A stretch of DNA of 64,000 nt, from positions 1-64,000 of the forward strand of contig JACXUV010000012.1 of NCBI GenBank assembly GCA_014763715.1, in the 5' to 3' direction. The notes beneath the pieces are model-generated. The model had not been told where the DNA came from. It searched no databases and saw only the letters and a list, made by a program, of their open reading frames with translations. Below, one piece after another: positions 1,226-4,416 of the stretch (positions are counted from its first letter, which is position 1; each line of letters starts with the position of its first letter). Source of the stretch: Rhodobacterales bacterium (lineage in GTDB: Bacteria; Pseudomonadota; Alphaproteobacteria; Caulobacterales; Hyphomonadaceae). A program made the translations under genes and the position numbers.

Positions 1226-2302
1226 TCAGCTCAGCCCGCCGCTCACGCTCGGCGTGCTCCACGGCGCGAAGCCGTAATGGCGGGTCCATTGCGGATCAGC
1301 CTCGAAATACGGGCGCAGGTCCGGCATGCCGTATTTCAGCATGGCCAGACGGTCGATGCCCATGCCGAAGGCGAAGCCCTGATACTCGTTCGGGTCGATG
1401 CCGCAATTGCGCAGTACGTTCGGGTGCACCATGCCGGAGCCGAGGATCTCCATCCAGCTGTCGCCAGCGCCAATCTCGATTGTCTCGCCCTTGCGGGTGT
1501 ACTTTACGTCCATCTCGGCCGAAGGCTCCGTGAACGGAAAGAAGTGCGGACGGAAGCGCGCTTCCACATTATCCACCTCGAAGAAGGCCCGCACGAAGTC
1601 GATCAGGCAGCCTTTCAGGTGCCCCATATGGGTGCCCTTCTCGATAACGAGGCCTTCGACCTGGTGGAACATCGGCGTGTGCGTCGCGTCCCAGTCGTTC
1701 CGGTAAACCCGGCCCGGCACGAGAATGCGGATCGGCGGTTTCTGCTCCATCATGGTGCGGATCTGCACCGGCGAGGTATGCGTGCGCAGCACTTTCGGCG
1801 TGTCGCCTTCCTGCGCCCTCATGAAGAAGGTGTCGTGCGTTTCGCGCGCCGGGTGCCCTTCCGGGAAGTTCAGCGCGGTGAAATTGTGCCAGTCGTCTTC
1901 AACGTCCGGCCCTTCGGCGACGGTGAAGCCCATGTCGCCGAAAATGGCGGCCACTTCCTCGAACACCTGCATCACCGGGTGCAGCGCGCCCGGTTTCGGG
2001 CCGGGGCTTGGCGGCAGGGTCAGGTCCAGCCTTTCGCTGACCAGCTGTTTCTCCAGCGCCTCGGCTTCCAGTTCGGCCTTGCGGGCCTTCACGGCATCAT
2101 CGACGCGGTTCTTCAGCGCGTTCAACTTCGGGCCGTTCTCCTTGCGCTCTTCCGGGCTCATCTTGCCCAGCGAGCCCATCAGGCCGGAGACCCTGCCCTT
2201 CTTGCCAAGCTCCGCCACGCGGACCGCGTCCAGCGCGTCCAGGTCTCCCGCTGCGGCGATGGCCGCCAACGCTTCTTTTTCGATCGTCGTAATATCGGAC
2301 AA
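1226..2302 (-). CDS. pheS: phenylalanyl-tRNA synthetase alpha subunit
   Basis: Catalytic class II subunit of phenylalanyl-tRNA synthetase, 358 residues from the chosen start. The N-terminal coiled-coil arm (about 1-90) contains [17 protein letters not shown]. The catalytic core has motif 2 ([10 protein letters not shown]) and motif 3 ([17 protein letters not shown]), plus [10 protein letters not shown] of the PheS family. I chose the TTG at 2302 because a Shine-Dalgarno-like AAGGGG sits about 8 bases upstream and residues after it ([14 protein letters not shown]) resemble a usual PheS N-terminus. Another in-frame TTG at 2359 would add 19 unusual residues. A hairpin terminator of the rplT operon lies between it and the upstream small gene, so pheS may have its own promoter or depend on read-through. 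Confidence 0.96.
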
Positions 2303-2373
2303 GGCCTTGCCCCTTATCTGGTTCCGCGGGCTTTTTAGGCGCTTCGCGGGATCATGCAAATCCGGAAACGGAA

Positions 2374-2396
2374 AAGCCCGGCACTGGGCCGGGCTT
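2374..2396 (-). terminator. hairpin terminator after the rpmI-rplT-smORF53 genes
   Basis: AAGCCCGGC and GCCGGGCTT form a perfect 9-bp stem with a 5-base loop. On the minus strand the stem runs into TTTTCC, giving a factor-independent terminator shape. It lies between the small basic gene (stop at 2461) and pheS, so it probably limits read-through of ribosomal protein messages into pheS-pheT. Confidence 0.75.
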
Positions 2397-2460
2397 CTCG
2401 CGGAATGGGTCGGCGCCTGCCCTCACGGGCCGTCACCGGCGGCGCGTTGCTCGCAAAGGC

Positions 2461-2622
2461 TTACTTGCCGGCAGCCTTTTTGCGGGCGAGACGCGCACGC
2501 TTGGTGTTGCCAAACACGCGGACTTTCGCGCGCTTGCCGAGATTGGCCCGCCATGTGGCGTTGCGGCGCTTGTTCCGCGGCTTCTTCGACGGGTGCAGAA
2601 CGGAGTTCGGGGACTTCGACAT
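2461..2622 (-). CDS. small, extremely basic protein downstream of rplT (smORF53)
   Basis: 53 residues starting MSKSPNSVLHPSK and ending ARLARKKAAGK. I count 10 Lys and 9 Arg and no Asp or Glu, a composition typical of ribosomal or nucleic-acid-binding proteins. It starts 28 bases after the rplT stop with an AGGA-containing ribosome-binding site 8-9 bases ahead of the ATG, and a terminator follows 65 bases after its stop. It is therefore the last gene of the rpmI-rplT transcript. It does not match bL32, bL34, bL35 or bTHX as I know them. A lineage-specific ribosomal or RNA-binding protein is the best inference; the exact function is unknown. Confidence 0.8.
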   Translation of the reverse strand: MSKSPNSVLHPSKKPRNKRRNATWRANLGKRAKVRVFGNTKRARLARKKAAGK

Positions 2623-2650
2623 CGGGGAATTCCTGTCTGGTCTTTATAGA

Positions 2651-3013
2651 TTAAGCGAGCGCGGCTTTGGCCTGGTCAACCAGGGCGCCGAATGCTGCCG
2701 GGTCCTTGATGGCGATGTCGGACATGACTTTCCGGTCGACTTCGATGCCAGCCTTGGTCAGGCCGTTGATGAAGGTCGAGTAGTTCATGTTCTCGTCGTG
2801 CAGGCGGACAGCAGCGTTGATGCGCTGGATCCAGAGCGAGCGGAACTTCCGCTTTTTGACTTTACGGCCGACATAGGCGTACTGGCCGGCTTCCCAGACG
2901 GACTGGTTCGCAATGCGGAACGTATTCTTGCGGCGGTTGCGGAAACCTTTGGCCTGCTTCAGAATCTTCTTGTGGCGGGCGTGGGCGGGTACTTTAGCGC
3001 GGGAACGGGGCAT
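2651..3013 (-). CDS. rplT: 50S ribosomal protein bL20
   Basis: 120 residues, full length for bL20. It begins [18 protein letters not shown] and contains the conserved [17 protein letters not shown] and [20 protein letters not shown] segments. bL20 binds 23S rRNA early in 50S assembly and in enterobacteria represses its own operon; whether it does so here is not visible. It follows rpmI by 46 bases and precedes the small basic gene by 28 bases. A strong GGAGG-type ribosome-binding site (GGAGGCTCAG) precedes the ATG. Confidence 0.98.
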
Positions 3014-3059
3014 CTGAGCCTCCTTGTTTCAAGATCAGGTATAAGACAGCGACGGCGGC

Positions 3060-3260
3060 TTAGAGGCCGTACGGCAGGTACTTTTTCACGCGGGCTTCAT
3101 CAGCCTTGGCGCCGACGGACGTGCCGCGGTTCTGGCGGATGTACTTCGCATTGTGGTTGATCAGGCGGTGGCGTTTGCCGGCAACGCCGTGCTTCAGCTT
3201 GCCCGATGCGGTGATCTTGAAGCGCTTTGCAGCGGCCTTCTTGGTCTTCATCTTCGGCAT
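3060..3260 (-). CDS. rpmI: 50S ribosomal protein bL35
   Basis: 66 residues, standard bL35 length, beginning [20 protein letters not shown] and ending VKKYLPYGL. The ATG at 3260 is preceded by a strong AAGGAG Shine-Dalgarno. A longer in-frame extension upstream exists but is not bL35-like, so I excluded it. Cotranscribed with rplT. The 162-base gap upstream toward orf119 may contain a promoter or a leader structure (a short CCACT/AGTGG stem is present), but nothing certain. Confidence 0.98.
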
Positions 3261-3422
3261 TTCATTCTCCTTTTTATGGAGCTCGCACCCTGACGGGCGG
3301 CCCGGTCTGTCATGAGTGGAGGGCATGCCGTTCGCCAGCACCACTCGGAAGTGGCGGCTTATGACGGATCAGCGGAACGGAATCAAGGGGGCTAAACCGC
3401 AGGAAATGCAGGTAAATCGCAC

Positions 3423-3782
3423 TCAGGATGGACTGCTCTCGGCATTCAGCCGCCTGATACACAAAAACATGGCATCCCGGGTCTCGGTCCTGGCTTTTGA
3501 TGGTTCAGTACCGCCATGATATCTGAACCGGATGAACTCCAGAAAACTGTAGTGCTTTCGGGCTTCCGGAACCGCACATGCACACACCGCCGAGCGGTCA
3601 AATGGCTCCATGTAAGGTATTTGTTCCCGGTGACAGATCGTCCTGACGCGGGCCCATTCCACTTGCCGGGCAATGATCACCAAGATCACGCCCAACAAGA
3701 TGAAATAACCAACCCACCGGAGGTAATGTATCGCGACCCCGAGTTCGGTCTCAGAGTCAGGCTCCGGTGGTGTGAGAATCAC
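3423..3782 (-). CDS. small membrane protein translationally coupled to infC
   Basis: 119 residues, family not recognised. One clear hydrophobic segment at about residues 22-40 ([18 protein letters not shown]) is followed by a cytoplasm-like basic and cysteine-containing region ([15 protein letters not shown]). The start is GTG and its last two bases overlap the infC stop in the 4-base sequence GTGA, a classic termination-reinitiation junction, which supports a real gene. It sits between infC and rpmI, normally adjacent genes. Function unknown. Confidence 0.65.
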
Positions 3783-4318
3783 CGCGGCGCGAGCACCATG
3801 GTCATCTGGCGGCCTTCGAGCTTCGGTTCCAGCTCCACCTTCGCCATTTCGTCGAAATCAGCCTTCACGCGCTGAAGCAGTTCCATGCCGAGATGCTGGT
3901 GAGCCATTTCCCGGCCGCGGAAGCGCAGGGTGACCTTCACCTTGTCGCCCGCTTCGAAGAAACGCATCATCGCCTTCGCCTTGACCTCATAGTCATGCGT
4001 ATCGATGTTCGGGCGCATCTTGATTTCTTTGAGTTCTGAAGACTTCTGCTTCTTCTTCGCGGCGGCTTTTTTCTTCCGCTCCTCGAAGCGAAGCTTACCA
4101 TAGTCGAGAATCTTGACGACAGGCACTTCCTGGTTCGGCGAAACCTCGACGAGATCCATGCTGGCTTCACGCGCAGCATCGAGCGCGGCGGCCAGCGGCA
4201 TGACGCCCTGCTTCTCACCGTTCTCGTCGATCAGCAGGACCTTTGCGGCCCGGATCTCCTCATTCGTGCGCGGTCCCTTTTCCTTCTGGGGCGCCTCGTT
4301 CATTGGTCTGCGAGCTAT
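3779..4318 (-). CDS. infC: translation initiation factor IF-3 with an AUA start codon
   Basis: IF3 binds the 30S subunit, blocks 50S joining and discriminates against non-canonical start codons. 179 residues from the chosen start. The N-domain ([21 protein letters not shown], to about residue 80), Lys-rich linker and C-domain ([31 protein letters not shown]) are all present, ending [11 protein letters not shown]. An in-frame ATG at 4303 has no ribosome-binding site. Five codons earlier an ATA at 4316-4318 sits 7 bases after AAAGGAG and gives [10 protein letters not shown], the N-terminus expected of alphaproteobacterial IF3. Use of AUA fits the known IF3 autoregulation through rare start codons (AUU in E. 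coli). Confidence 0.95.
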
Positions 4319-4325
4319 GGCCGGT

Positions 4326-4332
4326 CTCCTTT
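4326..4332 (-). promoter_or_regulatory. ribosome-binding site that fixes the infC AUA start
   Basis: AAAGGAG read on the minus strand, 7 bases from the ATA at 4318 but 22 bases from the ATG at 4303. The spacing strongly favours ATA as the true initiation codon. Confidence 0.8.
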
Positions 4333-4352
4333 GTGGCTATTTGCAGGATGCC

Positions 4353-4382
4353 TGAATATGCCTGTCGTTGCAGGGATATTCA
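4353..4382 (-). promoter_or_regulatory. long inverted repeat in the infC leader
   Basis: TGAATATGCCTG and CAGGGATATTCA pair over 12 positions with one G-G mismatch around a 6-base loop. It lies 34 bases upstream of the infC ATA codon and 34 bases after the end of the preceding glycosyltransferase gene. No T-run follows, so it is either a weak terminator for that gene or a leader structure or operator for infC. Confidence 0.5.
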
Positions 4383-4416
4383 AGGCAGAGCGCACTCGAC
4401 AATTTCTGGTTCCCGG

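Follow-up and report, generated by a model that had tools for sequence, protein, structure and literature searches.

Several small ribosomal proteins with restricted distributions have been described. According to passages of two reports (PMC10618245, PMC10085706), bS22 is small, very basic and easily missed by annotation, and it occurs only in certain lineages, among them Mycobacterium, Cutibacterium, Flavobacterium and Borrelia, with mS38/eL41 as analogues. It has 33 aa in C. acnes, is helical, lies on the 30S subunit and belongs to a group with 55–65% basic residues. The bL37 of actinobacteria, in the part of PMC10085706 that deals with it, is a small lineage-specific 50S protein binding 23S and 5S rRNA. 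bL38 of Flavobacterium and Borrelia is also a small lineage-specific 50S protein; passages of PMC10618245 place it in contact with H95/H97, uL6 and uL14 and report its finding by cryo-EM and mass spectrometry though it was unannotated. For msL1/msL2 of microsporidia, the authors of PMC10764239 infer that a small, positive, de novo protein was captured by rRNA.

The protein reported here, from a ribosomal-protein operon of Hyphomonas, differs from bS22 in having 53 aa and 36% K/R. A sequence relationship or match to bS22, bL37 or bL38 was not found among PDB chains up to E 10, a set in which the solved chains of these three were presumably included, and phmmer gave no match to any PDB chain up to the same value. 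The likeness to msL1/msL2, which are eukaryotic, is by description alone. The operon neighbours bL20 and bL35 are basic rRNA-binding proteins too, but an origin from either was rejected, with hhalign probabilities of 0.2 and 0.4% and no homology. No relative was found in Pfam, NCBIfam, PHROGs or PDB chains. A profile of the small protein retrieved from PDB only uS12 tails and a glycosyltransferase (E 0.3–0.85). Of these, the eukaryotic uS12 N-terminal tail (E 0.3 over 23 residues) is below significance; it was not accepted as a relative and serves as a lead only. The AlphaFold model (pLDDT 70, pTM 0.28) showed no confident fold. Searches of the open-access literature, on Hyphomonas and lineage-specific bacterial ribosomal proteins as well as on Caulobacter/Hyphomonas small proteins with rplT and bL35 co-evolution, did not show the small protein among the matches listed. 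A sequence-only reading of this DNA had suggested an undescribed ribosome-associated or RNA-binding protein. The word undescribed holds for the databases named and for the literature matches listed; the association with the ribosome gains indirect support from the co-variation with bL35 and 23S rRNA given below, from which we infer the binding itself. In manner the protein appears to be like bS22, bL37 and bL38, though by sequence a member of none of them.

The small gene and its operon

The operon lies on the minus strand of the window (the whole 64,000-nt stretch of DNA analysed) in the order infC, rpmI, rplT, small ORF, terminator, and then pheS. infC (3779..4303; TIGR00168, E 4.9e-67) encodes translation initiation factor IF-3, rpmI (3060..3260; PF01632, TIGR00001) encodes ribosomal protein bL35, rplT (2651..3013; PF00453, E 1.1e-41; TIGR01032) encodes bL20, and the downstream gene is pheS (1226..2302; TIGR00468, E 9.6e-94), whose TTG start was inferred from relatives. 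bL35 and bL20 were assigned by Pfam and NCBIfam, and PheS and IF-3 by NCBIfam alone. The small gene occupies 2461..2622 and runs on the minus strand from the ATG at 2622 to the end of the TAA stop codon at 2461. Its translation gave exactly the composition claimed in the sequence-only reading, 53 residues with 19 Lys/Arg and none acidic; one residue is His. That reading had also described a ribosome-binding site of its own, a position 28 bases after rplT and an operon terminator behind the gene, and each was recovered. A Shine-Dalgarno-like AGGA is located at 2631..2634, 8 nt upstream of the ATG, the gap to rplT was measured as 28 nt, and directly 3′ of the gene there is a hairpin with a T run at 2372..2396, which reads AAGCCCGGC-CCAGT-GCCGGGCTT plus the T run from 2396 to 2372.

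The leader upstream of rpmI (3261–3370, minus strand) was conserved throughout the genus and, in part, among the relatives of the genus, with the motifs CATAAGC.., GGCATGCC.., GGGCCGCC.. and GAGCTC. This mRNA leader may serve the autoregulation of bL20/bL35. Among the standard ribosomal proteins of the genomes, bL35 was present, bL20 was found, and many proteins of the S10-spc-alpha operons were recognised by eye.

Carriers and non-carriers within one genus

The small gene was found in 28 of the 105 family genomes, all within one of 10 genera, and this genus is Hyphomonas going by most of the named relatives. Twenty-eight of its 42 genomes carry the gene. Hyphomonas jannaschiana VP2 and H. polymorpha PS728 are named carriers. 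A profile search against 249 genomes of the order gave 13 strong matches, all from the same genus, plus three weak ones; against 385 genomes of the class it gave two strong matches, again from this genus, plus five weak ones. The eight weak matches were rejected as chance, being partial, in short or unrelated frames and, in several cases, under longer frames; this verdict was reached by reading the frames themselves. The rplT–pheS stretch of three weak-match genomes (G060, G151, G212) held no relative of the small gene. Of four weak matches in the genome itself, three frames were read and judged chance. No relative was confirmed in the phages, plasmids and viral contigs searched. A scan of one genome per species (84,980 species) confirmed close relatives at 20 loci, each with a 53-aa ORF. 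Judging from these searches the gene is confined to one genus, and the alphaproteobacteria-wide scope (rplT–pheS loci) set by the sequence-only reading was too wide, as about a third of even this genus is without it.

Four loci with the Hyphomonas-type rpmI-rplT-ORF arrangement (L015, L016, L017, L024) come from MAG records titled Acidobacteria or Sulfopaludibacter. These records are probably mislabelled, because their bL20 is 97.5–100% identical to that of one Hyphomonas sub-clade.

A tree of 33 proteins (8762 columns, 20 genomes, bL35 left out) placed non-carriers A1 with carriers A2 (support 100/100), and non-carriers B1 with carriers B2 (95/87). The tree of infC, rplT and pheS showed the same two clades. 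Single-gene trees disagreed: rpoB protein put A2 with B1 and rpoB nucleotides put A2 with A1, the 23S tree nested A2 inside A1 with B2 outermost, and rplT protein alone had B1 outermost. The kinship of B1 and B2 is therefore less sure than that of A1 and A2.

Fourteen of the 42 genomes were non-carriers, and 13 of these could be scored; G635 was left out, as rplT and rpmI were not found in its assembly, which is 83% complete. In all 13, rplT is followed by the terminator and then by pheS. In both carrier clades the small gene is encoded after rpmI-rplT and before the terminator, and the terminator hairpin follows the ORF in 28/28 carriers as it follows rplT in 13/13 non-carriers. In the 27 carriers with rplT read, the short stretch between rplT and the ORF was scanned and contained no terminator. 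The hairpin AAGCCCGGC...GCCGGGCTT (or GAGCCCGGC...) occurs in A1, B1 and A2 alike, in A2 with the ORF upstream of it; clade B2 has other hairpins in this place. The hairpin shared by A1, A2 and B1 suggests that the gene was inserted, or excised, just upstream of an older terminator. In sub-clade B2b (10 genomes) pheS is displaced (by 0.6–1.2 kb where both ends were seen) or lies beyond the stretch examined; despite this, the small gene still adjoins rplT. On gene order, then, rplT is the lasting neighbour of the small gene. At three B2b loci (L053, L052 and L108, of G041, G036 and G170) a protein of 333–352 aa starting with MGV[ST]KLS is encoded 3′ of the ORF, and it looks membrane-bound by eye.

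The ORF has 53 codons in 28/28 carriers and at 20/20 loci of the species-wide scan, and an ATG start in all 28 carriers. A Shine-Dalgarno-like tetramer precedes it in 28/28 carriers by a loose test (GGAG, AGGA, GAGG or AAGG anywhere in the 19 nt scanned), though the spacer varies in sequence and length between clades; the rplT-ORF gap is 28–35, 21 or 11–12 nt by sub-clade, and the Shine-Dalgarno sequence differs too. In a gapless alignment of 16 sequences (the window and 15 of the 20 scan loci), 33 of 53 columns were invariant. The protein has 17–20 K/R and 0–1 D/E in 28/28 carriers. The dN/dS of the small gene (Nei-Gojobori) was 0.26 in one carrier clade, 0.14 in the other and 0.25 between them, as compared with tighter values of 0.02–0.14 for rpmI and rplT; in B2-B2 and A2-B2 pairs, pS was 0.45–0.49 and pN was 0.09–0.18. 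The dN/dS of 0.14–0.26 indicates purifying selection on the small protein, and by these measures the ORF is a real protein-coding gene under purifying selection, which is weaker than on its neighbours. The sequence-only reading had named a lack of conservation or of coding constraint as the result that would count against it; with the gene in 28/42 genus genomes and this dN/dS, the reading was not refuted.

bL35 and 23S rRNA in carriers and non-carriers

The bL35 of carriers contains RGT[ST][VL]GAKADE[AS]RV-KK[YF]LPYGL in 27/27 carriers read and in 0/13 non-carriers of the genus, whose own form, RGTK[VL]A[AS].ADVARV[VM]KKFLPYGL, was found in 13/13. One carrier (G210) was left out since its rpmI is on another contig. 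Four columns separate the two groups without exception, i.e. S/T versus K at 48, G versus A at 50, E versus V at 55, and a one-residue gap. The window has the carrier-type allele: codons 48–58 (3087..3119, minus strand) include the carrier-specific S48, G50 and E55, with a one-codon deletion before K59. rpmI was single-copy in 43 of the 44 genomes searched, and none was found in G635. A group of another genus (the G046 group) has a bL35 of similar deletion type but no small gene, so this form is able to exist without the small gene. In the same operon, alignment column 113 of bL20, near its C-terminus, is A/D/S in carriers and K in non-carriers, a second charge change following the split.

Four of the 15 variable bL35 columns split carriers from non-carriers, whereas the 33 other proteins together had 48 such columns out of 1925 (outgroups excluded from both counts; the initial per-gene column test included them). 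bL35 ranked highest of the 34 proteins for this split (Fisher 5e-4; binomial multiplied by 34 proteins, 0.014), but the four columns may be one event, so these p-values mark an outlier and not four independent changes. The next were uL3 (5/63) and uL6 (6/88), with p ~0.02 each, uncorrected. Among the 1925 variable columns of the 33 proteins, 48 followed the carrier/non-carrier split, 70 the A/B split and 42 the third split; without uL1, which was not read in A1, the counts were 48, 69 and 33 of 1883. A general excess of carrier-split columns across the other proteins is at most slight. The groups in this test were small (4–5 genomes each, 3–5 for B2), 31 of the proteins were named from sequence and gene order without a family search, and infC, with one non-carrier, was too sparse for a column test.

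Five columns of 23S rRNA, at E. coli ~2144, 2151, 2352, 2356 and 2365, separated carriers from non-carriers among 20 full-length genes of the genus. We take the first two to be in H78 and the other three in H86. Positions 2144-2151 and 2356-2365 form base pairs, as read from the sequences. The H86 hairpin (E. coli ~2352–2365) was read in 22 genus genomes (20 with full-length and two with fragmentary genes) and is CGAGCTCGACGGAGCGAG in 11/11 carriers (seven A2 and four B2, one of them B2b) and in 0/11 non-carriers, which have three other versions. The 23S gene was not found in G631, G641, G643, G036 or G041, and was partial in G070.

In each of the eight contigs compared, the 23S gene is at least 0.4 Mb from rpmI. 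The least distance, 0.4 Mb, is that of G021, counted round its closed circle; rpmI and 23S lie at 0.41 and 2.01 Mb in G001, 0.69 and 2.54 Mb in G639, and 0.43 and 2.81 Mb in G200, on one contig each. H86 holds nine of the 329 variable 23S columns and three of the five separating ones (p 1e-4, or 0.002 with the base pair counted once), and it was picked for this test after the separating sites had been seen. Over the whole 23S gene there was no clear excess, with five carrier-split columns against 13 and two for two other splits.

Passages of PMC12721022 describe yeast mitochondrial bL35m as embedded by H31, H38 and H86, and in E. coli, according to part of PMC13372681, bL35 touches H13 and H88 near the E-site. 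H78 is not among the described neighbour helices of bL35; its pair ~2144/2151, in the L1 stalk and far from bL35, is compensatory, G-C in carriers and U-A in non-carriers. In the genome of the window itself (G000), a contig (C61:1-2190; L167, L169) holds pieces of a second, divergent 23S, 76–82% identical to its own, which are contamination or an acquired copy.

What this analysis adds is that the carriers fall into two clades and that a bL35 form and an unlinked H86 hairpin track the small gene. The tree implies perhaps two or three transitions behind this association, and not 40 independent cases.

History of the association and possible roles

As the carriers are not one clade, their shared bL35 form is not explained by simple descent. 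In the rpmI tree all the carriers form one group (UFBoot 98), adjacent to the G046 sequences, and A1+A2 was rejected in three settings (AU p 0.013 in the first, then 0.009 for protein and 0.0003 for nucleotides). Within it, the A2 sequences adjoin sub-clade B2a (UFBoot 72) and not their sister A1, and the difference at 4-fold sites is 0.30 for A2-B2 versus 0.39 for A2-A1. For rplT, a carrier clade was not rejected (AU 0.48, 0.32, 0.51), which leaves a single lateral transfer of the block as one way to account for the link with rpmI; the nucleotide ML tree had carriers together with 51 sequences and a tie within 0.07 log units with 27. However, with bL20 protein A1+A2 is ahead by 6.7 log units (AU for the alternative 0.32), none of these rplT differences being significant, and by eye the leader and spacer around A2 rpmI resemble those of A1/B1, not B2. 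These observations lean away from the transfer of one block. Two histories fit these trees: an origin of the carrier set in B2 followed by transfer to A2, or its presence in the common ancestor and two later losses in which the other bL35 returned. Under either, as far as the sequences tell, the ORF and the carrier form of bL35 stayed together, and the H86 hairpin with them.

We propose that the small protein is probably an unrecognised, genus-specific component of the large subunit. That it is a permanent 50S protein, probably near bL35, we regard as evenly balanced. It would be in the large subunit, or stay bound to it, in an amount proportionate to bL35 and bL20, because its gene is read from their operon. 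Its Lys/Arg residues would bind 23S rRNA, most likely in the area of bL35 and H86 towards the E-site; there the protein would stabilise the rRNA fold jointly with the matching H86 hairpin and the matching bL35 form, in which Lys48 is replaced by Ser/Thr and one residue fewer precedes the C-terminal KK[YF]LPYGL. It may perhaps take over the rRNA contact made by bL35 Lys48 in non-carriers. Presence on the ribosome, binding site and stabilising role are all, at this stage, what the comparison of sequences leads us to expect. A further step, possible but on the doubtful side, is that the genus-restricted 50S protein, one bL35 form and one H86 hairpin make up a co-adapted set, exchanged between clades or lost from them as a unit with its parts at two distant chromosomal places.

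The most serious alternative, which we think unlikely, is a basic protein that binds RNA or DNA in some other function (on mRNA, tRNA or the nucleoid); the operon would only set its expression level, and the bL35 type would co-travel with it through one DNA segment exchanged between the carrier clades. The position of A2 rpmI beside B2a, synonymous sites included, is what such a transfer would leave, and rplT is compatible with a block transfer; but the A1/B1-like leader and spacer and the non-significant lean of bL20 speak against it, and the unlinked H86 hairpin follows the same split. Less probable again is a factor that acts transiently on the 50S, in assembly or in storage (hibernation), and is not a permanent ribosomal protein. 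The operon, the charge and the bL35/H86 evidence would suit it equally, and non-carriers manage without the small protein, but the gene stands directly after rplT in a ribosomal-protein operon, and no separate promoter was seen, with 0 sigma-70-like sites in 2300–4400, although for these bacteria the test has little power. That the protein is exported, or is a peptide of the cationic antimicrobial type, or has such a side activity, is very improbable: it is small and very basic, and C. acnes bS22 and bL37 are reported, in a passage of PMC10085706, to inhibit bacterial growth, but no hydrophobic signal segment was seen by eye, and the gene has a fixed place in a ribosomal operon and co-varies with bL35. 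That what separates rplT from the terminator is a chance ORF or a regulatory RNA, as a short ORF without a known family might suggest, is hardly credible and was judged refuted by the fixed length of 53 codons, the large excess of synonymous over non-synonymous change and the constant Shine-Dalgarno-like site.

To return to the proposed large-subunit protein, the lineage-specific bacterial ribosomal proteins known to us are spread over large groups, and the gain of such a protein is therefore hard to watch. Ribosomal protein gain is an open question according to part of PMC10764239. The region around bL35 is also of interest since the E. coli protein neighbours the E-site, to which a depsipeptide antibiotic binds and at which truncated bL35 confers resistance (a passage of PMC13372681); natural variation in the bL35 patch thus bears on that site. 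In Hyphomonas, close relatives differ in the presence of the small protein, and the accompanying change in bL35 and H86 is testable by swaps. If the co-adapted set is true, a ribosome would here be seen to acquire or give up a protein inside a single genus, whose living carriers and non-carriers serve as matched controls.
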